Source of the DNA: Myxococcota bacterium
Lineage (GTDB): Bacteria > Myxococcota_A > Bradymonadia > Bradymonadales > GCA-2716585
DNA length: 42,806 bases
Assembly (NCBI GenBank): GCA_963169075.1
Contig: CAUJGC010000403.1
Span: 1-42,806 of the forward strand
Reading direction: 5' to 3'
In this document: positions 4,401 through 18,676 of the stretch, in pieces
How positions within the stretch are numbered: the stretch's first letter is position 1
How the letters are laid out: each line of letters begins with the position of its first letter
Translations under genes and position numbers: made by a program
Notes under the pieces: model-generated
What the model was told of the DNA's origin: nothing
Database searches by the model: none
Seen by the model: only the letters and a program-made list of their open reading frames with translations

Positions 4401-5015
4401 GAGGCCCCCCAGGAGGCCCCGGAGGCTGCGGTGACCCCTGAGGTCGCACCGGAGCCCGAGGCCGCACCGGAGCCCGCCAAGGCCCCTCGGCGCGGTCGCC
4501 GCAAGGCGGCCTCCAAGGCGCCGGCTGCCGAGGCGGCCCCGGCGGAGGCCCCCGCGCCTCCCGTCGAGGCGCCCAGCGAGCCTGCCCCCGAAGCGGCCGC
4601 CCCGGCCCCTGAGGAGGTGAAGGCCCCCAAGGCGTCCTCACGCAAGGCGCCCGCCTCCCGCAAGAAGGCCGCCGAGCCTCCTGCCGAGGCAGCGCCCGCA
4701 GCGGAGGTCACCGCCCCCGAAGCGGCCGCCCCGGCCCCCGAGGAGGTGAAGGCCCCCAAGGCGTCCTCACGCAAGGCGTCCTCACGCAAGAAAGCCGCCG
4801 AGCCCCCTGCGGAGGAGGTCACCGCCCCCACCGAGGTGATCGCAGCCGAGGAGGCCGCCCCGGCCAAGCCGCGCCGCGCCTCCTCGCGCAAGAAAGCCGC
4901 CGAGGCCCCCGAGGCGATCACCCCGGCCCCCGCCGAGGAGCCCCCGGCTCCCGAGGAGGCCCCCAAGAAGACCCGCAAGGCGCCCGCTCGCAAGAAGAGC
5001 GCCGCCGACGCGTGA
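1449..5015 (+). CDS. rne: Ribonuclease E (RNase E/G family) with very long disordered tail
   Basis: This is an endoribonuclease for mRNA decay and rRNA/tRNA processing, 1188 residues. An S1 RNA-binding domain lies at about residues 38-125, followed by the RNase E/G catalytic core to about residue 500. From the TTG start, the catalytic metal-binding aspartates in SVDVNSG and VVDFIDM fall at 303 and 346, and the zinc-link CPTC cysteines at 404 and 407, the same numbers as in E. coli RNase E. The TTG is chosen because AGGTGA lies 4 bases upstream; ATG at 1461 is the alternative. Residues ~510-1188 are low-complexity: acidic blocks, Arg-rich RRGRRRR blocks, then Ala/Pro/Glu and SRKKAAE-like repeats. 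These presumably bind RNA or degradosome partners, as known for other RNase E tails. Followed by a hairpin and rpsD. Confidence 0.95.
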   Translation: MTRKMLINAQRPEELRVAIIEDGRLENYQTEVAQADLCRGNIYRGVVANVEPSLNAAFIEFGADRHGFLAAHDVVEQAWHKTPSDKRHPRIDQILQRGKPITVQVTKDAMGSKGATLTTNLSIAGRYLVLTPMDSSRGVSRKIEDEARDDLRAKVRELELPPGVGCIIRTNGIDQSKLALTRDLQMLLRLWQRIDEQSNQQGGGTRLLYNDQDLVLQTIRDYLDAGIDELIIDDARALAKATAYIEAVMPRTKLRVTHYTQRLPLFSRYNLEPQIDGIYSRVVRLPSGGSIVIDATEALTSVDVNSGKSTGARSQEETAYNTNLEAAREVARQLRLRDIGGLIVVDFIDMRSRKYQRDVERALREAMKLDKARTRADRISENGLLEINRQRIKQALQLQTHRPCPTCNGVGRIASPEFVGLNLLRRIEARAAIGGVERVTISLHPELADAIQNSRRRELYELEQEFGIHIEVVSSAKLHRSDEEIQWHLGHSRLRTYIPKAQQNELLPPPLPGPSSLDPEFAVAFRRVDDDDDDVVAASSPPPSPDDDSDGGRGRRRRRGGRRRRRGEDAEVDASADLVQQRLEASLQADLDDDDSDDEDDDDARSSERLPRGAERTRRPEDDLDTAAPQGEDGEGGEGGRRRRNRRRRGRGRDRGRQDGAEVIDGDEVDGDEADTAEEPTPAPAPVPALRATPASPDTPAVLKRPARANAAAAAASATLGTSRLRRAERFTGEADAGNDRRRGRRRGRRGDEVELEAEAEAELELEAEAAAPADAEIEAVPTAATAAPQAEDAEAAAAEAADASGEGDEGGRRRRRRRRRGRGRGRSAEAAAAAEDLADDGDEDDTDDAPAPQAAPAPQAAPAPQAPPVAADEEEEEHTPRRGRRRRGASVTPPRPVTVEAPVAPARAAAPAPAAPAPAAPAPAAPAPAAPAPTPAAPAAEEAGSTAGRRRRGGRMKPAAEAPAEAPAEVVAEAPAEAPQEAQEAPQEAPEAAVTPEVAPEPEAAPEPAKAPRRGRRKAASKAPAAEAAPAEAPAPPVEAPSEPAPEAAAPAPEEVKAPKASSRKAPASRKKAAEPPAEAAPAAEVTAPEAAAPAPEEVKAPKASSRKASSRKKAAEPPAEEVTAPTEVIAAEEAAPAKPRRASSRKKAAEAPEAITPAPAEEPPAPEEAPKKTRKAPARKKSAADA

Positions 5016-5021
5016 CGGGCG

Positions 5022-5051
5022 CGGGCGCCCCTCCCCAGCGTGGGGCGCCCG
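5022..5051 (+). terminator. GC-rich hairpin after the RNase E gene
   Basis: Ten base pairs (GGGCGCCCC against GGGGCGCCC, plus a closing pair) enclose a 10-base loop, starting 7 bases after the stop codon. There is no T tract, so it may act as an mRNA 3' stabiliser or a weak terminator. Confidence 0.5.
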
Positions 5052-5198
5052 TCGCCGCGGATCTTCGCCCCACTTTGGACTTGCGTTCGCCCCCTGAGTG
5101 GGGCATACCTTCCGACCGCTCATCGGGCGCGGAGAGAGAGCCCTCCCTCCGTGGCTGCGTCACCAGGAAGCGAGCTGGCCGCGGCCCTCGGCCTGAGC

Positions 5199-5238
5199 GC
5201 CCCCTCGGGGGCTTTGAGAAACTCCGGGCTTCGCCCGG
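5199..5238 (+). promoter_or_regulatory. Two hairpins in the rpsD leader
   Basis: Two tight GC hairpins (GCCCCC/GGGGGC at 5199-5212 and CCGGGC-TTC-GCCCGG at 5224-5238) sit directly before the AGGAG ribosome site of rpsD. In other bacteria uS4 represses its own translation by binding a structured leader. A similar function here is inference. The short loops could also simply insulate the ribosome site. Confidence 0.35.
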
Positions 5239-5258
5239 CCATCCCATGTGAGGAGAAC

Positions 5259-5882
5259 ATGTCTCGCTATACCGGTCCCCGCGTCAAGCTCCTGCGTCGC
5301 CTCGGCGGCGTCGATCTCCCCGGCCTCACCCGCAAGATGAAGTGGGTCAGCAACCGCCCCTTCCCCCCCGGCCAGCACGGCCGCAACATGCGGCTCAAGA
5401 AGTCTGACTACCGCGTCCGCCTTGAGGAGAAGCAGAAGGTCCGCTTCTACTACGGCCTCCGCGAGCGTCAGATCGTCCGCTACATGCGCCGCGCCGCCAA
5501 GAGCAAGGGCAACACCGGCGAGAACTTCCTCCGCTACCTCGAGAGCCGCCTCGACAACGTGGTCTTCCGTATGGGCCTCGCCCCCACGGTCCCCGCCGCG
5601 CGTCAGATGGTCAACCACGGCCACATCGCCGTCAACGGCCAGAAGGTCAACATCGCCTCCTACGAGATCCGCGCCAACGACGAGATCTCCGTCCGCGACC
5701 GCGAGCGCAGCCGCAAGCTCGGCGAGCTCTGGGCCGCCGAGCCCTCCCTCGCCCTCCCGGCCTGGCTGGAGTTCGACAAGAACGCCCTCAAGGGCCGCGT
5801 CCTCGACACCCCCAGCCGCGACCACCTGCCCTACGAGCTCAACGAGCAGCTCATCATCGAGTTCTACTCGCAGAAGGTCTAA
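5259..5882 (+). CDS. rpsD: 30S ribosomal protein uS4 (S4), zinc-free form
   Basis: This is a primary 16S rRNA-binding protein of the small subunit, 207 residues. The N-terminus MSRYTGPRVKLLRR lacks the four-cysteine zinc-binding pattern of the C+ type. An S4 RNA-binding domain lies around residues 95-160 (LDNVVFRMG, then AARQMVNHGHIAVNG). The start is fixed by AGGAG at 5251-5255; an upstream in-frame ATG would add unrelated sequence. It stands alone rather than beside rpsM, rpsK and rpoA, so the genome may carry a second rpsD in the alpha operon. C-/C+ pairs of this kind are known for several zinc-ribbon ribosomal proteins. Hairpins flank the gene on both sides, suggesting a monocistronic unit. 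Confidence 0.96.
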   Translation: MSRYTGPRVKLLRRLGGVDLPGLTRKMKWVSNRPFPPGQHGRNMRLKKSDYRVRLEEKQKVRFYYGLRERQIVRYMRRAAKSKGNTGENFLRYLESRLDNVVFRMGLAPTVPAARQMVNHGHIAVNGQKVNIASYEIRANDEISVRDRERSRKLGELWAAEPSLALPAWLEFDKNALKGRVLDTPSRDHLPYELNEQLIIEFYSQKV

Positions 5883-5902
5883 GGGCACCCCGCCAACACG
5901 GC

Positions 5903-5928
5903 TTCGAGCCCGCCAACACGGGCTCGAA
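5903..5928 (+). terminator. rpsD terminator-like hairpin
   Basis: A perfect 10-bp stem (TTCGAGCCCG/CGGGCTCGAA) with a 6-base loop begins 20 bases after the rpsD stop. The hairpin overlaps two direct copies of CCCGCCAACACGG spaced 20 bp apart (5889 and 5909). No T tract follows. Confidence 0.55.
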
Positions 5929-5996
5929 ACACCGCACGGCGACGCCTCACACCACCCGCTGACACACGCAGGTGTGACCGCAGGTGTGATCTGGCA

Positions 5997-6030
5997 ACAA
6001 CGCCCTTGGCCTTTCGGTCAAGGGCGTTGT
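5997..6030. terminator. Strong hairpin at the left edge of the defence island
   Basis: A 12-bp perfect stem (ACAACGCCCTTG/CAAGGGCGTTGT), extendable by three pairs including one G-T, has a TTTC loop. Two direct copies of CGCAGGTGTGA lie just upstream (about 5968-5990). It separates rpsD from hsdM and may be a terminator. No run of T follows, so a recombination or protein-binding site is also possible. The rest of 5929-6143 shows no gene and no convincing promoter. Confidence 0.45.
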
Positions 6031-6143
6031 AGCTTGGGGGCGAGGTTGAAAGGTCAGTGGGGTAGAGTGGGCGGGAGTTGCAGACAGCATGAGCCCTACA
6101 AGTTCAAAGGCACCGAGTCGCAAGCTACCAAGGAGCAACCCGA

Positions 6144-8636
6144 ATGGCGATCAAGAAGTCTGACCTCTACTCCTCACTTTGGGCGTCATGCGACGAGCTG
6201 CGCGGTGGTATGGATGCCAGCCAGTACAAGGACTACGTCCTGTTCATGCTGTTCATCAAGTACATCTCAGACAAGTATGGGAACAGCGATGACTTTGAGC
6301 CACCGGTTGTTATCCCGAAGGGCGCGAGCTTCAAAGACATGGTCGCCCTCAAGGGTAAGAGCGACATCGGCGACAAGATCAACACGCAGGTCATCCATCC
6401 TCTCATCGACGCCAACAGCCGCCTTGCTCGGGATGACTTCCCCGACTTCAACAACCCGAACATGCTGGGCGAAGGACAGGCGATGGTCGACCGCCTGTCG
6501 AACCTCATCGGCATCTTCCAGCGGCCCGAGCTCGACTTCTCGAAGAACCGGGCGGAGCACGACGACATCCTCGGTGACGCCTACGAGTATCTGATGAGGC
6601 ACTTCGCCACGCAGAGTGGCAAGAGCAAGGGCCAGTTCTACACGCCATCCGAGGTGAGCCGCATCATCGCCAAGGTCATCGGCATCTCGCCGAAGAACTC
6701 CATAGGGGCGACAACCGCCTACGACCCCACATGCGGGTCAGGCTCACTGCTCCTCAAGGTAGCGGCTGAAGCAGGGACGAACATCACACTTGAGGGACAG
6801 GAGAAGGACGTCATGACGGCGGGCCTTGCCCGTATGAACATGATCCTCCACGACTTCCCGACCGCGAACATCCTGACAGGTAACACCCTCGCTGCCCCAA
6901 AGTTCAAAGACGGGAACCAACTTCGGACCTATGACTACGTCGTCGCGAACCCTCCGTTTTCCGACAAAAACTGGACGGCGGGGCTGACCCTGCCCGCAGA
7001 CCCCTACAAAAGGTTCGGCTGGGGCGAGCCGCCTGCGAAGCAAGGTGACTACGCCTACCTCCTCCACATCATCCGCTCGATGAAGAGTACTGGTAAGGCC
7101 GCTTGCATCCTGCCCCACGGCGTCCTCTTCCGCGGAAACGCCGAGGCAGCGATTCGCCAGAAGCTGGTTCAGTCTGGGCTACTCAAGGGGATAATCGGCC
7201 TGCCCGCGAACCTCTTCTTCGGCACCGGCATTCCTGCGTGCATCCTAGTACTCGACAAGGAGAACGCCGCGAGCCGGAAGGGCGTGTTCATGATCGACGC
7301 CTCGAAGGGGTTCAAGAAGGACGGACCGAAAAATCGCCTCCGTGAGCAGGACCTCCATCGCATCGTTGACACCTTCGCGCAGGGCCTCGATGTCCCCCGC
7401 TTCGCCCGCATAGTGCCGATCGAGGAGATCGCCGACCCGAAGAACAACTATAACCTCAACCTTCCTCGCTATATCGATAGTACCGAGCCGGAAGATCTCC
7501 AAGATATCAACGCGCACCTGAGCGGCGGTATCCCGGCGCGCGATATCGATGCTCTTGAGCGTTACTGGAAGGTCCTCCCTGGGTTGAGGAAAGACCTGTT
7601 CGAGCCGACAGAACGCCCAGGGTACCAGCACCTCCGGATCCCGCTTGACGTAGTCCAGGACAAGATCCTCAACCACTCTGAGTTCATCGCCTATCAGTCG
7701 CGTGTGGTGGCGATCTTCGACACATGGCGGACGTCCACCGAGCCGCAGCTCCGCAGCTTCGCTCAAGGACACCAGCCGAAGGATCTCATTGAGCAGGTGT
7801 CCGAGTCCCTGCTGCACGCATTCGAGGCGGCGCCGCTCGTCGACTCCTATGACGTGTACCAGCGCCTTATGGACTATTGGTCGGAGTCGATGCAGGACGA
7901 CGCATACCTCGTCGCTGCTGACGGATGGCTGAAGGGTGCACAGCCCCGTGAGATCGTTCGGGTCAAGGACAAGAACAACAAGCTCGTCTGGCCGGAGCCG
8001 CACGACTACCTCCGCGGTACCAGGCGAGGCGCGAGGCGCTTCAAGTCCGACTTGGTGCCTGCGACGCTCCTCGTGGATCGCTACTTCGTCACCGAGCGCG
8101 ACGCTATCGCTGCGCTCGATGATGACTTGGCGACGATCGAGCAGCAGCTCGCCGAGCTGCTTGAGGAGCATGGTGGCGATGAGGGGCTGCTCAACGAGGT
8201 CATCGAAGGCGAGGACGACAAGCAGAAGATCACCAAGCCAGCAGTGAACGCCCGGCTCAAGGAGATTCAAGAGGACACTGCTTTCGATGACGAGCGAGAG
8301 GTGTTGCTCGCGTACGCGGAGTTGCTGAAGAAGCAGGACGCAACGAAGGCCAAGCGGAAGGCTTCAGAAGAAGCGCTCCACGCCAAGATCGACGGCAAGT
8401 ACCCCAAGCTCACCGAGCAGGAGGTTCAGGCGCTCGTCATCGAAGACAAGTGGCTCGCCCATCTGCGCCGGAGCGTCGAGGAGGAACTCGACCGCGTATC
8501 TCATCGACTCACCAACCGGATTCGACTGCTCGCCGCGCGCTACGCCACTCCCCTGCCGAGCCTGACGAAGGAAGTGGCGGATCTCGCAGCCCGCGTCGAG
8601 GAGCACCTCGCGAAGATGGGGGCGACATGGAACTGA
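6144..8636 (+). CDS. hsdM: Type I restriction-modification DNA methyltransferase subunit HsdM
   Basis: This N6-adenine methyltransferase subunit joins HsdS to methylate host DNA and joins HsdS and HsdR in the restriction complex. It has 830 residues. The HsdM N-terminal helical domain spans about 6-140. The AdoMet-binding motif DPTCGSGS starts at D194 and the catalytic NPPF motif at N269-F272. A long C-terminal extension (about 500-830) is helical and charged with likely coiled coils (about 665-780); the family often stops near 500 residues, but ~800-residue forms occur. AAGGAG precedes the ATG. The gene overlaps hsdS by 10 bp. Its GC content and codon use are visibly less extreme than the flanking rne and rpsD genes, consistent with acquisition by transfer. 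Confidence 0.95.
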   Translation: MAIKKSDLYSSLWASCDELRGGMDASQYKDYVLFMLFIKYISDKYGNSDDFEPPVVIPKGASFKDMVALKGKSDIGDKINTQVIHPLIDANSRLARDDFPDFNNPNMLGEGQAMVDRLSNLIGIFQRPELDFSKNRAEHDDILGDAYEYLMRHFATQSGKSKGQFYTPSEVSRIIAKVIGISPKNSIGATTAYDPTCGSGSLLLKVAAEAGTNITLEGQEKDVMTAGLARMNMILHDFPTANILTGNTLAAPKFKDGNQLRTYDYVVANPPFSDKNWTAGLTLPADPYKRFGWGEPPAKQGDYAYLLHIIRSMKSTGKAACILPHGVLFRGNAEAAIRQKLVQSGLLKGIIGLPANLFFGTGIPACILVLDKENAASRKGVFMIDASKGFKKDGPKNRLREQDLHRIVDTFAQGLDVPRFARIVPIEEIADPKNNYNLNLPRYIDSTEPEDLQDINAHLSGGIPARDIDALERYWKVLPGLRKDLFEPTERPGYQHLRIPLDVVQDKILNHSEFIAYQSRVVAIFDTWRTSTEPQLRSFAQGHQPKDLIEQVSESLLHAFEAAPLVDSYDVYQRLMDYWSESMQDDAYLVAADGWLKGAQPREIVRVKDKNNKLVWPEPHDYLRGTRRGARRFKSDLVPATLLVDRYFVTERDAIAALDDDLATIEQQLAELLEEHGGDEGLLNEVIEGEDDKQKITKPAVNARLKEIQEDTAFDDEREVLLAYAELLKKQDATKAKRKASEEALHAKIDGKYPKLTEQEVQALVIEDKWLAHLRRSVEEELDRVSHRLTNRIRLLAARYATPLPSLTKEVADLAARVEEHLAKMGATWN

Positions 8637-9865
8637 CGGCGGCATTCAAGCAGACGGACATCGGCCCGTTGCCGAGCGACTGGGAAGTCGTTCCGTTGGG
8701 GCAGCTCGTGCGCATCACCAGCGGCGAGAGCCCATCGAGATTTGTCTTCCAAACCGCTGGAACGCCCTACTACAAAGTGGAGCAGCTCAGCGCAACAAAT
8801 AAGTACCTCTCGCAGAGCTCGACACCGTACCACTTCGACGGCAACACCACTGTGCCTGCCCGGAGTGTGGTCTTCGCCAAGAGGGGCGCCGCGATTGCTC
8901 TGAACAAGGTCCGCATCCTGACCGATGCCTCGTTCATGGATACGAATCTGATGGCGCTTACCCCCGGCGCTCGACTTGACGCGGAGTACCTCTACTACGC
9001 CCTTGCGCACATCGGGCTCTGGCGCTTCGCGGACACCACATCTGTCCCCCAGATCAACAACAAGCACATCAATCCGCTTCAATTTCCGCTGCCCACCCTC
9101 GCAGAGCAGGAGTCCATCGCACGTGCTCTCGGAGATGTGGACACGCTGCTTGAACGGCTCGACCAGCTCATCGCGAAGAAACGCGACCTGCGGGTTGCAG
9201 TCATGCAACAGCTTCTCAGTGGGGAGACCCGACTTCCGGGCCACGTGAAGCCCTGGACTGAAGCGCGACTCGGAGAGCTCGGAACCTTCGTCAAGGGAAG
9301 CGGGGTTAGGAAGTCCGAAGCGAACAGCGGGACGTTGCCCTGCGTCCGATACGGCGAACTCTATACGCATCACGATAACGTTGTCCGTCGATTCTTCTCC
9401 TCCATTTCAACTCGAGTAGCGGCCACAGCCACACGCCTTGAGCAGGGCGACCTTCTCTTCGCCGCTTCGGGTGAGACGAAGAAGGAGATCGGCAAGTGCG
9501 CTGCGTTTACCGGCAACTTTACTGCATTCGCGGGCGGTGACCTCGTGATTCTACGCAACCACCAGCAGAACCCGACGTTCATGGGTTACTACTGCAACTC
9601 GCCAGTTGTCAGACGACAGAAATCAAGCAAGGGTCAGGGCGACGCGGTGGTGCATATCAGCGCCCGCGCGCTCGCAAACATCACGGTGCGGCTGCCCTCA
9701 GTGCCGGAGCAAGACGCGATTGCAGAAGTTCTCGAGGACTCCGATGCCGAGATCTCATCTCTTGAGGAACGCCGAGCCAAGACCCAGGATCTCAAGCTGG
9801 CCATGATGCAGGAGCTACTGACCGGTAAGACGCGGCTCCACACCACAGGAGGTACCAATGGCTAA
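8627..9865 (+). CDS. hsdS: Type I restriction-modification specificity subunit HsdS
   Basis: This is the DNA-recognition subunit, 412 residues, with the usual two target recognition domains. TRD1 spans roughly 15-160 (GPLPSDWEVVPLGQL onward), a conserved spacer helix follows (about 165-205, LAEQESIARALGDVDTLLERL), TRD2 spans about 210-355, and a second spacer helix contains VPEQDAIAEVLEDSDAEISSLEERR. Both halves are present, so a bipartite target is expected; its sequence cannot be read from the protein. The ATG at 8627 is chosen because homology begins there and it overlaps the hsdM stop, which fits translational coupling. A longer in-frame opening upstream would only translate the end of hsdM in the wrong frame. 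It overlaps hsdR by 8 bp. Confidence 0.94.
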   Translation: MELTAAFKQTDIGPLPSDWEVVPLGQLVRITSGESPSRFVFQTAGTPYYKVEQLSATNKYLSQSSTPYHFDGNTTVPARSVVFAKRGAAIALNKVRILTDASFMDTNLMALTPGARLDAEYLYYALAHIGLWRFADTTSVPQINNKHINPLQFPLPTLAEQESIARALGDVDTLLERLDQLIAKKRDLRVAVMQQLLSGETRLPGHVKPWTEARLGELGTFVKGSGVRKSEANSGTLPCVRYGELYTHHDNVVRRFFSSISTRVAATATRLEQGDLLFAASGETKKEIGKCAAFTGNFTAFAGGDLVILRNHQQNPTFMGYYCNSPVVRRQKSSKGQGDAVVHISARALANITVRLPSVPEQDAIAEVLEDSDAEISSLEERRAKTQDLKLAMMQELLTGKTRLHTTGGTNG

Positions 9866-12800
9866 GCAGCCTCGCTCCGAGCGTAAGACGCAGGACCGCG
9901 TCGTATCCCTCTTCACGGATTCAAAGCGCACTGACAATCTCGACTATGTCTATCTCGGTAACCTCTCGAAGGAGCCGAAGAACAGGTGTCTCCGAACGGC
10001 CGAGCTGGAGCTCAACCTGGAACGCCGTCGGTACTCGGCAGCGCACATCACTCAGACGCTTCAAGAATTTGAAGCTGCGCTCGACACGACCGGTGTGACC
10101 CTCTACCAGGCGAACCTCCGCACCTACCAACTGCTCCGCTACGGCGTGAAGGTAAAGGTCAGCGAGGCTCGCCCCTATGAGACGGTCCACCTTATTGACT
10201 GGGAGCATCCCGAGGAGAACGACTTCGCGCTGGCCGAGGAGGTCACGCTCAAAGGTGGTCATGAGCGGCGACCGGACATCGTGCTCTATATCAACGGCAT
10301 CGCCATGGCGGTGCTTGAGCTCAAGCGCAGCTCGGTCGAGGTAGGCGATGGAATTCGGCAGCTGATCACGAACCAGGAAGAGATCTTCAACAAAGGGTTC
10401 TTCTCCACGGTGCAACTCCTCCTGGCTGGCAGCGACTCCCAGGGGCTGCGCTACGGAACTACAGGCACGCCAGAACAGTTCTTTGTACAGTGGAAGACTG
10501 AAGGCTCCGATGCTGGGTCACTGGAAGCAGGCGGCCTTCTCGACCGTCCCCTCGCCGATCTCTGCAACAAGACCACGCTCCTCGATCTCATCCGGAACTT
10601 CATCGTCTTCGACGCAGGGCACAAGAAGGTGCCCCGGCAACACCAGTTCCTGGCCGTGAAGGCGGCTCAAGAGCGCATCGTCAAGCGCGAAGGCGGCGTC
10701 ATCTGGCACACCCAGGGGAGCGGCAAGAGCATCCTGATGGTCCTTCTGGCCAAGTGGCTGCTTGAGCATGAAGCCAACGCGCGCGTCCTCATCATCACCG
10801 ACCGCGACGAGCTCGACAAGCAGATTGAGGGTGTGATGAAGAGTGCAGGGGTGATCTCTACCTCTTCGCCGTCGCTGCGGATCACCTCGCGCGCTGAGTT
10901 CGTCGACAAGCTCGGCGCAGCGACGCCGAGGCTCCTGTGCGCGCTGGTTCACAAGTTCGACGCCTCCGATCTGAAGGCCCCCCCACCCCCCATCTCTGGG
11001 CGCTTCTACGTCTTCGTCGATGAGTGCCACCGGACCCAGGGTGGCGATATGAACAAGCAGATGAAGCGGTGGCTTACCGATGCCATCTTTATCGGGTTCA
11101 CCGGAACACCGCTGCTTCGCAAAGACAAGCAACTGACGCGCGACGTCTTTGGTTCGTACATCCACACCTACAAGTTCCACCAGGCTGTCGCCGACAAGGT
11201 CGTGCTCGATCTGAAATACGAGGCTCGCAATGTGCCACAGCGGCTCGCCTCGCCGACCTCCATCGACAAGTGGTTCGAGCAGAAAACAAAGAACTTGAAC
11301 AATTTCCAGAAGGCGGCCTTGCGCAAGCGCTGGGCGACCCTGAAAGAACTGATGAGCTCTGGTGAGCGAAAGCAGCGCATCATTGCGAGCATCATCGAAG
11401 ACTTCAGCCTCAAGCCCCGGCTGAACAATGACCGAGGAACAGCCATCCTGGTGGCTGCCTCGATCTACGATGCCTGCCACTACTACCAGCTCTTTCAAAA
11501 CACAACGTTTGGCCCATATTGCGGCCTGATCACTTCCTATGAACCGAATCACAACGAAATATCGCGGGAGCCACCCAACAGCAACGAGCGCTACAAGTTT
11601 GATACATACACAAAACTCGTATTAAAAAATGCCCAGAGCACTGAAAAATACGAGGAACAAACCAAAGAGCGCTTTATCGAAGAGCCCGCCAACATGAAGC
11701 TGCTGATCGTGGTCAGCAAGCTCCTCACGGGGTTCGACGCGCCGAGTTGTACGTACATCTATCTGGACAACGAACTCAGGGACCACAACCTCTTTCAGGC
11801 AATCTGCCGCACCAACCGCTTGGATGGGGACGACAAGGACTACGGCCATATTGTCGACTTCAAAGAGCTCTTCGGCGACGTGCAGCAAGCGATCGCGGTC
11901 TACAGTTCGGATGAACTGGACATTGACGAGGGAACTGGCGGCCAGGACAACATCCCCCTCAAGAACTGGCTCGAAGAGGGAAAGAAGCGACTCGACGAAT
12001 CTCGGGAGGCGCTCCATTACCTCTGTGACCCCGTACCTCTACCGCGTGAACTTGAGCACTACCTCTTCTACTTCTGTGGCGACGCGGCTGATCCGAACGC
12101 GCTGTTTGACACCGAGGCTCTTCGTGTCGCATTTTACAAAGCAGTCGCGGTCTTTGTCCGAGCCTTCACTGCTATTGCACAGGATTTAGCAGCAGCGGGT
12201 TACTCGGAGTCTCAAAGTGCAGCGCTTCAACAGGAGGTACGCTTCTTCGCTGACGTTCGCGCCGCGATCAAGAAGCATTCTGGTGAGGAACTGGACATCA
12301 AGCCCTACGAAGCCGACATGCGCCACCTCATCAACGCCTACATCCAGGCAGATGCGGTCGAGGATCTCGGTGGGTTGGGTGAGATGTCCCTTACCGAGCT
12401 CATCATTGAGACGGGGATTCACGACGCAATCGCCCGGACACTCAACCAAAAGGGAAAGCTCTCCAATCGGTCGATTGCTGAAGGTATCATCAACAATGTC
12501 CGTAAGACGATCATACGCGACCAGCTGGCAGATCCCAGGTTCTATGAGCACATGTCCCAGCTGCTCGATGATCTGATTAAGCATAGCCGCGACAGCGCAG
12601 CGGCCTACGAGGAGTTCTTGCGGAAGGCGGAGGACCTCGTGAAGCAACTGGCTGCCCATCAGCCCCAGGGGGGCGTCCCCTCGTCGCTTCACGGTCGGCG
12701 GGAGGCGATCATCCTTTTCAATAACCTCAACTCGGTGGCCGCGACATCCTTTGTGTGTCCGACGGATCCCGATGAGCGAGCGGAGCTGGCGCTGCAGATC

Positions 12801-12953
12801 GATCGGGCGATCAGGGAGCGCGCCCCTGCGGGATGGAAGGGGGATCAGGCCCGAGAGGCCCAAGTGAAGAACGCGATCTTCCCGCTGCTCGATCGGGACC
12901 GCGAGGCCACAGTGGCGGTCTTTGAGATCGTCAAGAATCAGCCGGGGTACTGA
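9858..12953 (+). CDS. hsdR: Type I restriction endonuclease subunit HsdR
   Basis: This is the ATP-driven translocase and nuclease of the type I complex, 1031 residues. The N-terminal PD-(D/E)XK nuclease is intact: D140 in RRPDIV and E154/K156 in LELK. The superfamily 2 helicase motor shows Walker A QGSGKS (K290), DECH box (D388-H391), FTGTP motif III, then LLTGFDAP and QAICRTNR in the second RecA lobe. A helical C-terminal region (about 690-1031) would bind the methyltransferase. AGGAGG lies before the ATG, within the end of hsdS. A stretch near 11490-11660 is markedly A/T-richer than the rest, but the frame stays open. The final TGA overlaps the next start (TGATG). Confidence 0.96.
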   Translation: MAKQPRSERKTQDRVVSLFTDSKRTDNLDYVYLGNLSKEPKNRCLRTAELELNLERRRYSAAHITQTLQEFEAALDTTGVTLYQANLRTYQLLRYGVKVKVSEARPYETVHLIDWEHPEENDFALAEEVTLKGGHERRPDIVLYINGIAMAVLELKRSSVEVGDGIRQLITNQEEIFNKGFFSTVQLLLAGSDSQGLRYGTTGTPEQFFVQWKTEGSDAGSLEAGGLLDRPLADLCNKTTLLDLIRNFIVFDAGHKKVPRQHQFLAVKAAQERIVKREGGVIWHTQGSGKSILMVLLAKWLLEHEANARVLIITDRDELDKQIEGVMKSAGVISTSSPSLRITSRAEFVDKLGAATPRLLCALVHKFDASDLKAPPPPISGRFYVFVDECHRTQGGDMNKQMKRWLTDAIFIGFTGTPLLRKDKQLTRDVFGSYIHTYKFHQAVADKVVLDLKYEARNVPQRLASPTSIDKWFEQKTKNLNNFQKAALRKRWATLKELMSSGERKQRIIASIIEDFSLKPRLNNDRGTAILVAASIYDACHYYQLFQNTTFGPYCGLITSYEPNHNEISREPPNSNERYKFDTYTKLVLKNAQSTEKYEEQTKERFIEEPANMKLLIVVSKLLTGFDAPSCTYIYLDNELRDHNLFQAICRTNRLDGDDKDYGHIVDFKELFGDVQQAIAVYSSDELDIDEGTGGQDNIPLKNWLEEGKKRLDESREALHYLCDPVPLPRELEHYLFYFCGDAADPNALFDTEALRVAFYKAVAVFVRAFTAIAQDLAAAGYSESQSAALQQEVRFFADVRAAIKKHSGEELDIKPYEADMRHLINAYIQADAVEDLGGLGEMSLTELIIETGIHDAIARTLNQKGKLSNRSIAEGIINNVRKTIIRDQLADPRFYEHMSQLLDDLIKHSRDSAAAYEEFLRKAEDLVKQLAAHQPQGGVPSSLHGRREAIILFNNLNSVAATSFVCPTDPDERAELALQIDRAIRERAPAGWKGDQAREAQVKNAIFPLLDRDREATVAVFEIVKNQPGY

Positions 12954-13669
12954 TGTCAGAGACCATCCAGCTTGGCGAGATTTCGATTGCGGTGACGCGG
13001 AAGGACGTGAAGCACGTCCATCTCTCCGTGCACCCGCCGGCTGGGCGTGTGACCCTGGTGGCGCCGATGTCGACTCGGCTGGATGTTGCGCGGGCCTATG
13101 CGGCGTCGCGGATTGGATGGATTCGCGACCAGCAGACAAAGCTGGCCGAGCAAGCGCGCGAAGCCCCTCGTGAGTTCATTGAGCGCGAGAGCCACTATCT
13201 TTGGGGACGTCGGCACCTGCTGACGGTGACCGAGCGCGACGCGAAGCCTGTCGTGACTGTCGATCACAAGCGCATCACGCTGGCGGTACGGCCTGGGACT
13301 GATCATCTAGGCCGGGCCCGTGTAATGCACGAGTGGCACAAGAGCCTGCTTCACGAACTGGTTCCTCGCCTCATCGATAAGTGGCAGGGCCGCCTCGGCG
13401 TCAAAGTGGGCAGCTACTTCCTGCAGCGCATGAAGACCAAGTGGGGCAGTTGCAATCATGAATCCGGCACGATCCGGTTGAACACTGAGCTCGTGAAGAA
13501 GCCGAAGGACCTAGTCGAATACGTGGTGATGCATGAGATGGTCCACCTCTTGGAGCCAACACACAACGACAGGTTCATTACCCTCCTTGATGAGCACTAC
13601 CCAACTTGGCGCGAGGCCAGGACGGAGCTGAACGCGCTACCGCTCGGTGCGGAGGAGTGGACAGCGTGA
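12953..13669 (+). CDS. YgjP/DUF45-type M48-like zinc metallopeptidase linked to hsdR
   Basis: A 238-residue protein of the YgjP-like (DUF45) metallopeptidase family. The zinc-binding HEMVH motif is at residues 194-198, followed by EPTHNDRF with H204 as the likely third ligand; MKTKWGSCN upstream is another family signature. The N-terminal half is a beta-rich domain. There is no signal peptide or membrane segment, so it should be cytoplasmic. Its ATG overlaps the hsdR stop by one base, so the two are translationally coupled. Genes of this family are often found beside type I restriction genes, but the role is not settled; possibilities include processing of HsdR or of a phage protein. The catalytic residues look intact. 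Confidence 0.88.
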   Translation: MSETIQLGEISIAVTRKDVKHVHLSVHPPAGRVTLVAPMSTRLDVARAYAASRIGWIRDQQTKLAEQAREAPREFIERESHYLWGRRHLLTVTERDAKPVVTVDHKRITLAVRPGTDHLGRARVMHEWHKSLLHELVPRLIDKWQGRLGVKVGSYFLQRMKTKWGSCNHESGTIRLNTELVKKPKDLVEYVVMHEMVHLLEPTHNDRFITLLDEHYPTWREARTELNALPLGAEEWTA

Positions 13670-13798
13670 GGAAGACTACGAATCAACTTTGGCGTGGGGT
13701 TTTCCGTCGCGAATATCTGCTCACCCGTGTATGTTTATTCATATATGGGGCCTCGATCTTTCGAGCCCGCATGGGTTCGGAAACATCGGAGGGCTCTG

Positions 13799-14797
13799 AT
13801 GGCTCGTTCTGACCTTCTCATCGACATCGTCAAGGCAGGGGCCGAAGGCGATCAGATGCTGTTCCAAAAGGCCCTTGAGGCTTTGATCACCGAGGAGCGA
13901 TCCAAGCAGCACAACATCCTCGCAGACCGGCTCGCGGAGCATCTCAACCTCAACGGGAGGCCGACGCGCCCCACACGGCTTGCGGCGGCGCTGCCGAACG
14001 GCGAGGCAAAGCTTTTTCACGAGGTCCGGCCTCGGAGGGGTTTTGACGACCTTTTGCTTCCACCAATTGTGAAGCAAGCTTGCTCGGAGTTGGTGGAAGA
14101 ACACAACCGCGCGGACCTCCTGCGGGCTCACAATCTTGAGCCACGCAACCGTATTCTCCTTGTCGGACCACCGGGCAACGGGAAGACGTCGCTCGCCGAG
14201 GCGTTGGCTTTGGAACTGGGGAGCCCCCTGCTCGTGGTACGCTATGAGACCATTATTGGCAGCTATCTTGGCGAGACCGCTGTACGACTTGCCAAGCTCT
14301 TTGCCCAAGCCCGAACCCAGCGCTGCGTCCTCTTCTTCGACGAGTTCGATGTCATCGGCAAGGAGAGGGGTGATGTCCATGAGACGGGCGAGATTAAGCG
14401 TGTCGTCAGTTCGTTGCTCTTGCAGATCGACCAGCTCCCGTCGTATGTGGTCGTCGTTACAGCCACCAACCACAGCGAGCTTCTCGACCGTGCTGTGTGG
14501 CGTCGTTTTCAGCTCCGCCTAGACCTACCGACCCCAGGAAAGGGGCAGCGTATGGCATGGTTGGATATGTTTGAGAGGCGAAGCGGGCTGCAGCTTGGCT
14601 ACACCCATGAGCACCTCGCACGTCGATTGGCTGGTTTGAGCTTCGCGGAGCTTGAGCAGTTTGCCCAAGACGTCCAGCGCCGATATGTACTCACCATGCC
14701 CGGCGCGGATGTGCGGGGTATTGTCGCAGACCGGCTGAAGCAGTGGACGTCCCGCGCCACACCTACACTTTTCTCGCCGGAGAACGACGATGGTTGA
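13799..14797 (+). CDS. ietA: AAA+ ATPase, IetA-like, partner of a subtilase
   Basis: A 332-residue AAA family ATPase. An N-terminal helical segment (about 1-75) precedes the ATPase core: Walker A GPPGNGKT (K129), Walker B VLFFDEFD (D181-E182), sensor VVTATN, and arginine-finger region DRAVWRRFQ. A small helical lid follows. The ATG at 13799 is chosen because GGAGG lies 6 bases upstream; the longer frame would add 35 residues without a ribosome site. It overlaps the subtilase gene by 8 bp. An AAA ATPase paired with an S8 protease defines IetAS, described first in Agrobacterium Ti-plasmid stability and later as an anti-phage system. The ATPase may restrain or feed the protease. The naming rests on domain pairing and gene order. 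Confidence 0.85.
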   Translation: MARSDLLIDIVKAGAEGDQMLFQKALEALITEERSKQHNILADRLAEHLNLNGRPTRPTRLAAALPNGEAKLFHEVRPRRGFDDLLLPPIVKQACSELVEEHNRADLLRAHNLEPRNRILLVGPPGNGKTSLAEALALELGSPLLVVRYETIIGSYLGETAVRLAKLFAQARTQRCVLFFDEFDVIGKERGDVHETGEIKRVVSSLLLQIDQLPSYVVVVTATNHSELLDRAVWRRFQLRLDLPTPGKGQRMAWLDMFERRSGLQLGYTHEHLARRLAGLSFAELEQFAQDVQRRYVLTMPGADVRGIVADRLKQWTSRATPTLFSPENDDG

Positions 14798-17396
14798 ACG
14801 TCCGCTTTTGATACTGCCTGAGCCTACGAATGCAGAACGTGCCAGAAGGGGTGGTGGAGGGGGCGGCCCTGCTCCTCTCAGCCGGACAAGGCAGCGGCTG
14901 CGCTTGGGGCCTAAACTCACTGCGCTTGAACGTGCCTTTAACGCAAAGCAGCTAAGAATACAGGCGACGGCCGCGGGCCTCGTGCCTGAGGATGTTCTCG
15001 TACTTGAGACTGCGGGCACAGTGGACGATTTCTTCAAAGCTGCATCAGAAATTAGAGGCCTTGAGTTCCTCGCTGAGTATGACGAGGACGACATCCAGCC
15101 TGACGAAGACTTCTTCGTCGAGAAGAACGGCGTACACAAGGAGTACCGCGGACGCGTGTACTTGATGTTTACCAATTTTAGGGCTTTTCAGCAGCTACTC
15201 AGTCTTTGGAGGACGTGGCAGAGTCGTGGGAAGTTCCAGCATGGCCTTGCGAAGTGGCGACAAGTATTCGAGTTGCTGCGTGATATTCGCCCGTGGTCCG
15301 TACAAGACCGGCTGGAAGAGACTGGCGTGCTTGATGACTGGCGCGATCGTCTTGAATGGGAACGCGAGAACATACCGTGCGAGATCGAGCTCTGGTTTCG
15401 TGCAGACGAACAGCAGCGCATGGCGGCGTCCGTCGAGGTCCGCGCTCAAGTGCTGGAACTGGGTGGAGAGGTCGTTTCGGAAGCGACGGTTCCCGAGATC
15501 CACTACCACGCGTTGGCTGTTCGGCTCCCTATCACTGCGGTTCAGAGCCTGCTCGACGAAGATTGCCGCGGCGCCGTTGCCCTCGTGCAAGCCGCACAGA
15601 TCCAATTCTTCCGCGCTTCTGGTCAGATGGCCGGCCGAATCACAGTTGATCAGACCTCGCCGCTCTCAACTCTACCGAACGAACCGCTGCCCAACCCCGC
15701 GACGCCTCCGGTGGTTGCGCTGCTCGATGGTCTTCCGTTGCAGTCTCATAGCGCGCTAACGGGACGCCTCACTGTCGATGACCCCGACGACTTCGGGGCC
15801 AATTACGAGGCACGGGTTCGGCTCCATGGCACGGCTATGGCGTCGCTCATCATCTGGGGCGACCTGCACTCTCCCGGCGAGCCGATTCCCCAGCCGCTGT
15901 ACGTCCGGCCAATCATGCAGCCCGGCGGTGGTGCTCTGTCGACCGACGAACGGGTGTCCGAGGGGCTGCTCATCGTCGATCTCATCCACCGAGCGGTGCG
16001 GCGCATGTTCGAGGGTGAGGGCAGCACGCCTGCGACTGCACCAAACGTCTCTGTCATCAACCTATCGATTGGCATCGCCGACAGGCCCTTCGACGGGACC
16101 ATAAGTCCGCTTGCTCGACTACTCGACTGGCTCTCTTGGAAGTATAGAGTGCTTTTTCTTGTGAGTGCAGGGAACTGCAGTCAAGCGATCAATTTTGAGC
16201 AAGAGTGGGGCGATCTAGCAACAGTTAGCCCAGAAGAATTTCATCAGTGCGTCACTAGGGCCATTGCAGCTGATACGAGGCACCGTCGGTTGCTCTCGCC
16301 AGCGGAGGGGGTGAACGTTCTTACTGTCGGTGCAACGCACGAGGACAATGACTCGACTGCACTGAGGGCAAATTGGATTGACCCTGCAGTCATTGGATTT
16401 CCGAGCCCTATCAATGCACAAGGGCAGGGCTATAAGCGCTCGGTTAAACCGGACGTCCTTGCCCCAGGGGGCCGCGTGGCGTTGATTAAGCCTTTTGCGA
16501 ATTCTACAACCGAACTCAAGATACCCAGTGTCACATACGGTCCAGGGCAACTCGTAGCCACACCAGGCCCCACACCAGGCAACGTAAACTCGACTGTGAC
16601 CAACCGTGGGACCAGTAATGCGACGGCGCTCATGTCGCGGGCGGCAGCCCTTCTGGCACCAGTGCTGGACGAACTACGGGAGCGCGATGGGGGCGAGGTA
16701 CTTAATCGGGTGGCGCCAGCGCTGTGGCTAAAGACGCTGCTTGTGCATGGTGCACGATGGGGACAAGCCGGCGAAGACTACCAAGCCCTCCTCAGGACTC
16801 CGACCAATGGCAACAAGCTTGCGGAGCATCTCACCCGTCTGCTGGGGTTTGGGCGTGTTGACCTTAACGTGGTTCGTGAGTGCACTGAGACGCGCGTGAC
16901 GGCCCTTGCGGGTGGAAGGCTTGTCGCAAACGCGGGCGCAGAACATCGGTTCCCGCTACCGCCGTCGCTCAGCGGCAAGCGGGGGCGACGCTGCTTGGTG
17001 GTCACGCTGACCTGGATGACCCCTATTCATCCCTTGAACCATCGTTGGCGCCGCGCTCACGTCTGGTTCTCTTCCCCGGAGTCGAGGCTCGTGGTCGGCA
17101 GCAACAAACATCTTGAGCGACGCGACGCGGACTGGCAGGCCGTGCAGCGAGGCACCGTTCAGCATGAAGTTTTCGAGGGCGAGAAGGCTGCAGCGTTCGT
17201 TGAAGGTGACGAGATCGTCATCCGTGTGAGTTGTAGAGAGGATGCTCCTGTGCTTTCTGGATCTGTACCATACACACTTGCTGTCACGCTTGAAGTCGAT
17301 CCTGCTATTGGGGTTGATATTTATACTGAGGTTCGTGAGCGTGTTCAGACTCGACTCCGCGTCGTTGCCGACGGTGCCCTGCCGAGCCGCTCCTGA
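14790..17396 (+). CDS. ietS: Subtilisin-like S8 serine protease, IetS-like
   Basis: An 868-residue protease. The N-terminal ~300 residues are a non-catalytic region with a Gly-rich run at about 21-26 and no signal peptide. The S8 catalytic triad is visible: D313 in VVALLDG, H346 in LHGTAM, S609 in GTSNATAL. The subtilase signatures NLSIG and VSAGN lie between. About 200 residues after the Ser form a C-terminal beta-rich domain. Absence of a secretion signal and overlap with the ATPase gene argue for an intracellular, controlled protease rather than an exoenzyme. The likely role is phage defence or plasmid/element maintenance by proteolysis, as reported for IetAS. GC content is moderate, and a patch near 16140-16450 is A/T-richer. 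Confidence 0.88.
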   Translation: MVERPLLILPEPTNAERARRGGGGGGPAPLSRTRQRLRLGPKLTALERAFNAKQLRIQATAAGLVPEDVLVLETAGTVDDFFKAASEIRGLEFLAEYDEDDIQPDEDFFVEKNGVHKEYRGRVYLMFTNFRAFQQLLSLWRTWQSRGKFQHGLAKWRQVFELLRDIRPWSVQDRLEETGVLDDWRDRLEWERENIPCEIELWFRADEQQRMAASVEVRAQVLELGGEVVSEATVPEIHYHALAVRLPITAVQSLLDEDCRGAVALVQAAQIQFFRASGQMAGRITVDQTSPLSTLPNEPLPNPATPPVVALLDGLPLQSHSALTGRLTVDDPDDFGANYEARVRLHGTAMASLIIWGDLHSPGEPIPQPLYVRPIMQPGGGALSTDERVSEGLLIVDLIHRAVRRMFEGEGSTPATAPNVSVINLSIGIADRPFDGTISPLARLLDWLSWKYRVLFLVSAGNCSQAINFEQEWGDLATVSPEEFHQCVTRAIAADTRHRRLLSPAEGVNVLTVGATHEDNDSTALRANWIDPAVIGFPSPINAQGQGYKRSVKPDVLAPGGRVALIKPFANSTTELKIPSVTYGPGQLVATPGPTPGNVNSTVTNRGTSNATALMSRAAALLAPVLDELRERDGGEVLNRVAPALWLKTLLVHGARWGQAGEDYQALLRTPTNGNKLAEHLTRLLGFGRVDLNVVRECTETRVTALAGGRLVANAGAEHRFPLPPSLSGKRGRRCLVVTLTWMTPIHPLNHRWRRAHVWFSSPESRLVVGSNKHLERRDADWQAVQRGTVQHEVFEGEKAAAFVEGDEIVIRVSCREDAPVLSGSVPYTLAVTLEVDPAIGVDIYTEVRERVQTRLRVVADGALPSRS

Positions 17397-17414: not shown

Positions 17415-17984
17415 TCATCCGGCATCCGGCCGACCGGTGACCCCACTCGCAGCCGCCTTTGCATCCCCCTCCCGCAGCGAGGCCAGCTCCGCCTTGGCCT
17501 CCAGCCTGGCGATCTCCTTGGCTGTGGTCAGCGCCTCCTTCTCCAGCAGCTCGATCTTCAGCTTGGCGGCTTCGAGGTCGGCAGCGCGGACCTTGGCGGA
17601 TCGGTCCCATGCGGCGATGAACTGAGAGGCGACGAAGAGTGAGGCGACGACGACGGTGGCCCAGGGGTTCCCGGCGGCGTCCTGGAGCAGCTCGGGGGTG
17701 AGGCCGGCGGCCTCGGTGGGCTGCGCGGTGGCGGTGGCTGCGTAGCCGATGGTGCCTCCGAGGATGAGGAGGTGGAAGAGGACGAGCGGCCAGGAGCGAC
17801 GGGTGTCCTTCAGGGCGGCGTGGAGGGGGCTGGCGGGGCGGGGGCTGGCGGGGGCTGGCGGGTGGGAAAGGGAGCGGCGAGGGGGCGGCCTTGATGGTGT
17901 GGAGGGTGTCGCGACGCCCAGCCCCGGGAGCACACCGCCCCGGGCGCTGGCGGCGTAACCATAAAAAACGCGCGAATCCATCAC
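17415..17984 (-). CDS. Small two-helix membrane protein with C-terminal coiled coil, start uncertain
   Basis: The open frame gives up to 189 residues. The N-terminal ~60 are Pro/Ser/Arg-rich. Two hydrophobic segments follow (about 66-88, PLVLFHLLILGGTIGYAA, and about 108-126, WATVVVASLFVASQFIAA), then a charged Ala/Glu/Lys coiled coil (about 130-175). No family is recognised. The only ATG codons lie inside the terminator hairpin at 17963-18002, so translation from there is doubtful. A GTG at 17930 would give 171 residues. The gene is convergent with ietS (18-bp gap) and outside the island's operon. Confidence 0.5.
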   Translation of the reverse strand: MMDSRVFYGYAASARGGVLPGLGVATPSTPSRPPPRRSLSHPPAPASPRPASPLHAALKDTRRSWPLVLFHLLILGGTIGYAATATAQPTEAAGLTPELLQDAAGNPWATVVVASLFVASQFIAAWDRSAKVRAADLEAAKLKIELLEKEALTTAKEIARLEAKAELASLREGDAKAAASGVTGRPDAG

Positions 17985-18002
17985 GGATTCGCGCGTTTTT
18001 TT
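17963..18002. terminator. Bidirectional rho-independent terminator
   Basis: An 11-bp perfect stem (CGCGCGAATCC/GGATTCGCGCG) with a 5-base loop is flanked by six A on the left and seven T on the right, so it can work in both directions. It follows the stop of the kinase gene (minus strand). Confidence 0.9.
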
Positions 18003-18022
18003 ATACCTGACCCCTCATCCCC

Positions 18023-18676
18023 TCACCCCAGCGGCAGCCCCACGCTCTGGGTGTCCTCGCGGAGGAAGGGGCGCAGCACCTCCAGGAAGTCCTCGCGGCC
18101 CTTCGGGGTGCGGATGTCGAGCTGGGAGACGTCCACGGTCAAGGTGGGGAGCTTGTACTTGTGCTCGCAGACCTGCGCGAAGTTGTCATAATAATGCGCG
18201 AGACCGCGCAGGAAGCTGACGCTGATCGTGCGCTCGGCGGCGCGGCCGCGCTGGTTGATGCGCTGGAGGAGGGTGTTGACGTCGCTGCACTGGAGGAGCA
18301 CCACCCGATCCGGCTGCCGCACCGTCGGCATCAAGGCCCGGCAGTAGTCGAAGTAGAGGTCCAGCTCGGTGTCGGTCATGTGGCCGAGCCCGTGGAGGTA
18401 CTTGGCGAAGACCTCGGGGTCCTCGATCAGGGTCCGGTCCTGCACCCAGTTGGCGCGGTGGAGGTCCACCTGGCGGTGGTGCTCGATCCGGCGGAGCAGG
18501 AACTCCATCTGGAGCGTGAAGGACCAGCGCCGCATGTCGGCGTAGTAGGGCGCCAGGAAGCGGTTATCGACCACAGGCTCCAGCAGGAGCTGGAACCCCA
18601 TGGCCTCGGCGATGAGGTGGGCCGCGGTGGACTTCCCCACCCCGATGTTACCGGCGAGCGCGACAAAGAGCGGCAT
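18023..18676 (-). CDS. Deoxynucleoside kinase (dCK/dGK family)
   Basis: A cytoplasmic salvage kinase that phosphorylates deoxynucleosides with ATP, 217 residues, the usual length. The P-loop is GNIGVGKST (about residues 9-17). EPVVDN follows with the substrate-side Glu, then the DRT motif in QDRTLIED, and an Arg-rich lid RGRAAE. The C-terminal LPTLTVDVSQLDI resembles the end of the family domain. Substrate preference (dA, dG or dC) cannot be read with confidence. It begins 11 bases after the TPR lipoprotein gene and is probably co-transcribed with it, then terminated at the hairpin near 17980. Confidence 0.9.
   Translation of the reverse strand: MPLFVALAGNIGVGKSTAAHLIAEAMGFQLLLEPVVDNRFLAPYYADMRRWSFTLQMEFLLRRIEHHRQVDLHRANWVQDRTLIEDPEVFAKYLHGLGHMTDTELDLYFDYCRALMPTVRQPDRVVLLQCSDVNTLLQRINQRGRAAERTISVSFLRGLAHYYDNFAQVCEHKYKLPTLTVDVSQLDIRTPKGREDFLEVLRPFLREDTQSVGLPLG

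Follow-up and report, generated by a model that had tools for sequence, protein, structure and literature searches.

What do an ATPase and a subtilase encoded side by side at the end of a restriction gene island do for the cell, and are they a defense pair at all? We addressed this question for ietA and ietS in the window, i.e., the whole 42,806-nt stretch of DNA from a Myxococcota bacterium that was analyzed (Table 1). The initial annotation had read the two genes as an IetA/IetS pair with intact catalytic residues.

Table 1. Coordinates of the features of the locus in the window and the evidence behind each of them.
Feature	Position	Strand	Evidence
HsdM, type I methyltransferase, upstream in island	6144..8636	+	PADLOC, Pfam, NCBIfam
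HsdS, specificity subunit; ORF open from 8450, best profile match starts near 8633	8633..9865	+	
HsdR, restriction/translocase subunit	9858..12953	+	PADLOC, Pfam, NCBIfam
YgjP-like metallopeptidase, between hsdR and ietA	12953..13669	+	Pfam
IetA, classical AAA ATPase, 332 aa, candidate antitoxin/remodeller	13799..14797	+	PADLOC, Pfam, motifs, alignment, fold
IetA residues 1-49, three-helix N-terminal unit	13799..13945	+	aligns with pTiC58 IetA from residue 1
IetA further residues: N224, R235-R236, pore loop Y156-L157-G158	within 13799..14797	+	
IetS, subtilase, 868 aa, candidate toxin/effector; triad D313/H346/S609 and N462	14790..17396	+	
IetS residues 68-168, first beta-alpha-beta-beta-alpha-beta unit	14991..15293	+	model secondary structure
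IetS residues 194-276, second beta-alpha-beta-beta-alpha-beta unit, I9-like pro-domain position	15369..15617	+	model and fold matches
IetS residues 305-696, subtilisin catalytic domain	15702..16877	+	Pfam, model, fold match
IetS residues 702-836, beta-rich C-terminal domain	16893..17297	+	model, fold match

Sequence comparison supports membership of the pair in the IetAS family, as initially proposed, through PADLOC and through profile matches to the pair of plasmid pTiC58. PADLOC called the pair IetAS over nearly full profiles (E 3e-147 for IetA and 0 for IetS; PDLC04232/PDLC04233, 488 and 1021 bits), and the two proteins showed no difference from that system. As expected of IetAS, the window has an AAA ATPase gene directly followed by an S8 gene on the same strand, and the Walker motifs and the subtilase triad are intact. 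The pTiC58 genes are unnamed in their record; the sole S8 match of the plasmid was taken as IetS and the ATPase gene before it as IetA. Window IetA matched pTiC58 IetA from residue 1 (E 5e-46), the N-terminal helical unit included, while the 19 other matches to the PADLOC IetA profile in this genome all started at profile position 54 or later. Window IetS was co-linear with pTiC58-type IetS over 745 columns (positions 5-858 to 8-823, E 1e-42), an alignment that reaches beyond the catalytic domain and is weak in places outside it. As controls, two further subtilases from this genome scored probabilities of 4.4 and 0.3 percent against pTiC58-type IetS.

Placement outside the IetS clade had been named beforehand as grounds for abandoning this assignment, and the window protein does stand apart in two respects. 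In a FastTree phylogeny with long branches, it fell in a separate branch from pTiC58 IetS. Because no single branch separated the outgroup from the rest, use was restricted to two groupings with a support of 100, one containing the window (six rows) and the other pTiC58 (15 rows). Nine of the 126 rows (fragments and near-copies) were left out beforehand, and one row (L030) was kept that fails all four catalytic columns, probably because of a wrong reading frame. The pair also scored below the NCBIfam equivalog cut-offs and matched these models in part: IteA (NF042959) over 98-334 with 213 bits vs. 510, and IteS (NF042956) over 163-657 with 72.5 vs. 900. However, the pTiC58 pair misses the same cut-offs (199 bits for IteA and, at E 1e-10, no match to IteS), and the co-linear homology places both in one family. 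A BLAST search with window IetS retrieved no pTiC58 ORF at 1e-6.

The two genes overlap by eight bases in the window. An alternative IetA start, GTG at 13694, would yield a protein of 367 aa; the PADLOC IetA profile match starts exactly at residue 36 of this longer version, which is ATG 13799, and by eye GGAGG lies just 5′ of that ATG. No promoter-like sites were found between 12800 and 17800, which is uninformative with 1.1 expected by chance, and no tRNA genes were found in the window. The catalytic residues and coordinates given by the initial annotation proved exact. K129 (within GPPGNGKT, Walker A), D181 and E182 (within LFFDEF, Walker B) were invariant in all 91 aligned IetA sequences; D313, H346, N462 (within SAGN) and S609 (within GTSNA) were likewise invariant in all 89 aligned IetS sequences. 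The claim that IetS has no signal peptide was borne out by a crude hydrophobicity proxy: within its first 60 aa, the most hydrophobic 12 residues had a Kyte–Doolittle value of 0.47, and none of the 89 aligned IetS exceeded 2.0.

The N-terminal region of IetS had been described as unknown, with infection sensing or ATPase binding as possible roles. A region of about 300 residues is indeed there, and in the predicted structure (model pLDDT 93) it is ordered, with two β-α-β-β-α-β units. The second unit occupies the place of the inhibitory subtilisin pro-domain, its predicted order of strands and helices and its position fit the I9 type, and it continues into a conserved FFRPxGQ stretch. A structure search, covering mainly residues 293-795, aligned KP-43 (1wmd) over 305-834. 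Fold matches also included entries titled ProN-Tk-SP or Pro-S324A, the latter presumably Tk-subtilisin. Neither Pfam (three fragments) nor a PDB profile search detected an I9 pro-domain in this stretch, so we infer the pro-domain from position and topology. The second unit may be pro-domain-like and self-inhibitory, and because of its place, self-inhibition appears at least as likely as the sensing role suggested earlier. By sequence, no solved relatives of full IetS were found at E 0.001, and a search of viral structures yielded subtilases and weak matches only.

The two genes rarely part. Of the 89 loci from which both were taken, 43 have ietA and ietS overlapping, and in the remaining 46 the gap from the end of ietA to ietS is no more than 35 bases. 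Among 101 loci found via IetS, ietA or part of it lies upstream in 98, and the other three start at a contig end or close to one. Distance matrices of the two proteins correlated with r = 0.87 over 86 pairs (permutation maximum, 0.16), as genes that travel together do in any case. A second, truncated IetS ORF in one genome (G366) had no detected IetA, and its D313 and H346 columns were unmatched. Conversely, no subtilase was found for six of 37 strong IetA matches; such solo genes may be IetA-like partners of other proteins (DarT, HipA_C) instead of remnants. A Paraburkholderia plasmid encodes a whole IetA followed by IetS similarity to residues 5-237 only, with an IS6 transposase just downstream. 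No IetS relatives were found in the GenBank phage collection, and distant blastn found no such pair in E. coli genomes.

In the window, ietAS closes an island of hsdM, hsdS, hsdR and ygjP. It lies 3′ of hsdR-ygjP on the same strand after a gap of 130 bases, which would fit placement in a type I restriction-modification (R-M) operon, and the segment from hsdM to ietS is a single low-G+C block (52-64% in 500-base steps vs. 65-78% on either side). The flanks of 14 of the 80 genome loci contained hsd genes above 60 bits (16 with two weaker ones); ietAS shared their strand in all 14, with no intervening gene in 11. In 50 of the 80 genomes, picked mainly for their long flanks, an HsdM-like gene was beside ietAS in eight vs. 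0.48 expected, an estimate that sets an in-house HsdM profile, for which these loci were the training set, against Pfam counts (120 methylase matches summed by hand, genome sizes rounded). Its Poisson P of 4e-8 takes no account of relatedness or of any overall tendency to lie in defense islands. The link is not special to the branch of the window: among pairs with IetS outside it, two of 20 long stretches had an HsdM-like ORF above 60 bits (778 and 67 bits), a share that does not differ clearly from the 14 of 80. The hsd label changes about 10 times on the tree, and 39 of the 54 tips that could be scored (the window plus 53 loci) have no hsd gene in view, including two of the five nearest relatives of the window (L057 and L060). 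Other toxin-like genes are also present in or beside such operons. When an empty insertion site was sought in four genomes of the same family, the best rpsD and deoxynucleoside kinase matches were on different contigs; these genomes are drafts, so the result says little. The titles and abstracts of the literature searched stated no link between IetAS and type I R-M. The initial annotation mentioned neither the restriction genes nor the toxin-antitoxin literature nor the order in the IetS N-terminus.

Published accounts of relatives assign the toxin role to the subtilase and the antitoxin role to the ATPase (PMC8562856, PMC6755753). As described in PMC8562856, a mycoplasma subtilase brings E. 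coli counts down by 3-5 logs and is neutralised by its ATPase; section 8 of PMC6755753 gives loss of the ATPase alone as lethal in syn3A. The pairs tested as toxins or against phages are distant from the branch of the window, in which the module is known from sequence. A toxin-antitoxin or abortive-infection module linked to restriction is the most likely explanation for the window pair. On balance, we favor an IetAS-type toxin-antitoxin module that was probably acquired together with the adjacent type I R-M genes.

An alternative division of labor is a two-component ATP-dependent protease, in which an IetA ring would unfold substrates via its pore and feed them to IetS, like ClpX and ClpP. 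Within restriction operons, such a protease could serve restriction alleviation as a built-in device, destroying HsdR that attacks the cell's own DNA. All 91 IetA carry a [Y/F]-L-G-E-T pore loop, the aromatic-hydrophobic-glycine type of ClpXP/FtsH-like proteases, and the folds closest to IetA (residues 70-325 compared) are PAN, Vps4, FtsH and p97 (Z 21-23). ClpXP is reported to degrade HsdR in type IA and IB systems (PMC12707154), and ietAS does occur in or beside hsd operons. However, the majority of pairs are not beside hsd genes, and the ATPase of the tested relatives is described as silencing, not enabling, the protease, which makes this explanation rather unlikely. Somewhat less probable still is a pure addiction module, with IetAS merely stabilising its island or plasmid and responding to no specific phage trigger. 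Against it, many copies sit on long chromosomal contigs and part of them repeatedly in restriction operons, and IetAS is catalogued as anti-phage, reportedly by Gao et al. in 2020 and likewise in the names of the PADLOC and NCBIfam models. In its favor are relatives on 82 plasmid records and 21 IMG/VR contigs and the pTiC58 precedent, to which Yamamoto in 2009, according to citing papers, is said to have assigned a role in plasmid stability. A subtilase of unrelated function, housekeeping or secreted, that chances to follow an ATPase gene was rejected as very improbable: subtilases are common and S8 matches lie on five other contigs of this genome, but the missing signal by proxy, the pairing with IetA, the nearly full-length IetS homology over 745 columns and the failing control subtilases contradict it.

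Under the toxin-antitoxin explanation, IetS would be made as a latent cytosolic protease whose pro-domain-like unit covers the active site or lies close to it, and an IetA ring would engage IetS and restrain or remodel it. Upon phage attack, this restraint would be lost, IetS would cut cytosolic proteins, and the infected cell would stop growing. The link of ietAS to R-M genes suggests that the trigger might include whether the restriction enzyme is engaged or inhibited, in the manner of PrrC in EcoprrI; this is the least certain step. The earlier statement that trigger and substrate of IetAS are not established agrees with PMC9958689, where the mechanism was called undescribed in 2023. Recurrent placement in type I operons makes the trigger directly testable via the linked restriction enzyme, and the confident IetS model with its putatively self-inhibitory unit points to concrete mutants. 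IetAS has been reported from many genomes.

Among known systems, the pTiC58 pair resembles that of the window in having the ATPase gene first and in homology of both proteins over nearly their full length; it differs in that no hsd gene is present among the 10 annotated features in the 11 kb around it. The mycoplasma pair (JCVI-syn3 _0132/_0133), with its published toxicity and neutralisation, is alike in gene order and domain types, and its subtilase has 757 aa vs. 868 aa. PrrC in EcoprrI is, as IetS of the window would be, a second effector inside a type I R-M operon, as described in PMC12707154. PrrC is a tRNA nuclease, whereas IetS is a protease whose sole Pfam match at E 0.01 is Peptidase_S8, with no anticodon nuclease match; IetS therefore at most works like PrrC. 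We tentatively suggest, as a possibility, that such IetAS pairs serve type I restriction operons as exchangeable accessory modules. As a counterpart of PrrC based on a protease, the module would keep watch over the restriction enzyme and be released once a phage inhibits or overwhelms this enzyme; in the mirror-image version, it would be an AAA+ protease built into the operon to remove HsdR whenever restriction turns against the host.

The window carries an intact IetA/IetS pair, of a family already known, in a recurrent restriction-operon setting, and this setting, rather than the catalytic residues, is the point of interest. A sequence check returned exactly the coordinates and named residues that the initial annotation had given for both genes. 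IetA (332 aa) starts with the ATG at 13799, just after a GGAGG; a GTG lies upstream in the open frame at 13694, but the PADLOC family profile starts at 13799. IetS (868 aa) is encoded by a gene overlapping ietA by 8 bases. The catalytic residues were intact, as proposed: D313, H346, and S609, together with N462, were unchanged across 89 aligned IetS proteins, and K129 and D181-E182 across 91 aligned IetA proteins. A secretion signal had been thought absent, and a signal-peptide-like stretch, assessed by a hydrophobicity proxy, was found in none of the 89 IetS proteins.

The annotated IetAS identity held at the level of the family. PADLOC matched IetA (488 bits) and IetS (1021 bits) over nearly their full lengths. 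In profile comparisons, the window's IetS family could be aligned over 745 columns, positions 5-858, with its pTiC58-type counterpart (E 1e-42), and the alignment of its IetA family with pTiC58 IetA started at residue 1 (E 5e-46), whereas two further subtilases of the window's genome gave no such alignment. However, pTiC58 IetS fell in another branch of the IetS tree, and the window's pair scored far below the NCBIfam IteA/IteS equivalog cut-offs, although the pTiC58 pair also fell short of them. Sequence comparison thus places the window's pair within the family, on a branch separate from that of pTiC58. The closest relatives among the 80 kept came from Accumulibacter (78%), Magnetococcales (70-71%), and Thermoanaerobaculia (70%), a taxonomic spread suggestive of horizontal transfer; the phylum draw included four genomes of the same family, and these had no match. 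IetS relatives of the window's branch were also present on 19 IMG/VR contigs classed as viral (L136-L154; 31-42% identity, best segment), with weak matches at two more IMG/VR loci (L155-L156) and none in GenBank phage records.

Among 101 loci found via IetS, 98 had a whole or partial ietA upstream, and the remaining three started at or near a contig end. The two genes overlapped or lay at most 35 bases apart in all 89 loci from which both were taken. A second IetS ORF in genome G366, with no IetA detected beside it, was truncated, its D313 and H346 columns unmatched. Searching the phylum with IetA gave 37 strong matches in 36 of 377 genomes: for 30, a match to IetS lay close by on that contig, one had a subtilase detected via Pfam, and six had no subtilase by IetS profile, S8 motifs, or Pfam on those next genes that were tested. 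On a Paraburkholderia plasmid (L051), a whole ietA precedes an ietS remnant similar to residues 5-237, with an IS6 transposase gene directly downstream. IetS is nearly always accompanied by IetA and IetA sometimes lacks IetS, as a toxin-antitoxin pair predicts; IetA-type ATPases may serve other toxins too. The gene pattern also agrees with published work on relatives: in PMC8562856, a mycoplasma subtilase caused a drop of 3-5 logs in E. coli counts and its ATPase neutralised the protease, and in PMC6755753, losing only the ATPase was lethal to syn3A. At L212, the gene of an IetA-like ATPase, whose 207-bit match starts at profile position 1, is followed by overlapping genes for a DarT toxin and a macro-domain protein; other IetA-like ATPases are followed by a HipA_C protein at L213 (G090:C8) and a DUF3800 protein at L215 (G053:C68). 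No subtilase was found at these three loci.

In the window, ietA is preceded by hsdM, hsdS, hsdR, and a YgjP-like metallopeptidase gene, which lie on its strand and overlap one another slightly; 130 bases separate the last from ietA. G+C content was 52-64% over 6.0-17.5 kb (500-base steps), 65-78% in the flanks within the profiled stretch, and 66-79% in the rest of the window (2-kb steps). Because they share this low-G+C block, ietAS and the restriction genes were probably acquired in one event. In four same-family draft genomes, the best matches to the downstream kinase and to rpsD were on separate contigs. A Planctomycetota contig (L068) has a YgjP-like gene before ietAS, arranged as in the window, and stops just upstream of it, so any restriction genes there could be missing from the contig.

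Gene orders (M, hsdM; S, hsdS; R, hsdR) and coordinates of loci and features
Locus or feature	Coordinates	Strand	Gene order or position
189-aa ORF without Pfam match and deoxynucleoside kinase	17415-18676	-	directly downstream of island
L056			M, Fic-like, S, ietAS, zeta-like, R
L058			M, S, two genes, ietAS, R
L059			M, S, ietAS, R
L064			M, S, ietAS, two genes, R
L105			S, ietAS, R
L070			M, ietAS, S, YhcG, R
L073			M, ietAS, S; contig ends
L077			M, S, R, ietAS
L126			ietAS, M, S, R
L090			ietAS, R
L125			ietAS, M
L051	6001-8419
L068	134-955
L212 (G013:C22)	6000-11500
L249 (G044:C121)	4107-8558

With profiles built from the window's genes, HsdM or HsdR exceeded 60 bits in the flanks of 14 of 80 genome loci (16 with two weak ones), on the ietAS strand in all 14; in 11 of these, an hsd gene directly adjoins ietAS. 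In L058, L059, and L105, ietS overlaps hsdR. Among 50 of the genomes, eight had an HsdM-like neighbour, against 0.48 expected from their own methylase counts (Poisson P 4e-8, relatedness ignored). On the IetS tree (15 tips with hsd, 39 without, 21 not scoreable), the label changed about 10 times, so the link was gained or lost repeatedly. A strict link is countered by L057 and L060, two of the window's five closest relatives, where no hsd gene was in view, and a branch-specific link by HsdM-like ORFs of 778 and 67 bits (threshold 60) around two of 20 pairs with an IetS from outside the window's branch. The weaker, a 1,100-residue ORF at L249, stops 22 bases upstream of ietA and perhaps represents another restriction type. 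Pfam matched seven of 10 further genes of hsd-linked loci: OLD/AbiEii-like ATPases (two), YhcG (two), Fic-like, zeta-like (weak), and PIN. Such genes stand beside ietAS and type I genes in L056, L058, L064, L070, L086, and L105. We found no description of this recurrent setting in the literature searched, whose coverage was limited.

The single-protein model of IetA (pLDDT 81.6) shows an N-terminal three-helix unit (residues 2-49) and a classical AAA module, closest to PAN, Vps4, FtsH, and p97 (Z 21.2-22.7 among 50 matches listed; 221-258 residues aligned, covering 70-325). The pore loop, [Y/F]-L-G-E-T, is kept in 91/91 IetA proteins, which makes a substrate-engaging ring plausible. The IetS model (pLDDT 93.2, pTM 0.94) has two beta-alpha-beta-beta-alpha-beta units (68-168 and 194-276), the catalytic domain, and a beta-rich C-terminal domain. 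KP-43 and SubHal matched over 305-834 (Z 24.8, rmsd 3.0-3.2, 381-384 aligned). ProN-Tk-SP, whose entry retains the N-terminal pro-part according to its title, spanned 98-850 (467/507 residues) but at rmsd 6.5; PCSK9 and Pro-S324A entries were among the best Foldseek matches. Unit 194-276 leads into a conserved stretch, FFRPxGQ (R275 in 81, P276 in 71, G278 in 69, and Q279 in 77 of 89 IetS; A at 276 in the window). From the model, we read this unit as a pro-domain-like self-inhibitor, an identity that sequence searches did not confirm.

We propose that the N-terminal part of cytosolic IetS would keep the protease latent together with IetA, acting as antitoxin in the window's branch too; infection would lift this hold, and the freed protease would stop the cell. 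Alternatively, IetAS could be an in-operon AAA+ protease acting on HsdR, which is worth testing, as HsdR of types IA and IB is degraded by ClpXP according to PMC12707154. For a latent IetS, the presence of ietAS within type I operons suggests that the trigger partly involves the restriction enzyme. This would resemble PrrC, likewise an effector in a type I operon, which, according to the same review (PMC12707154), becomes active upon inhibition of EcoPrrI by T4 Stp; by analogy, IetS may be triggered via its restriction enzyme.
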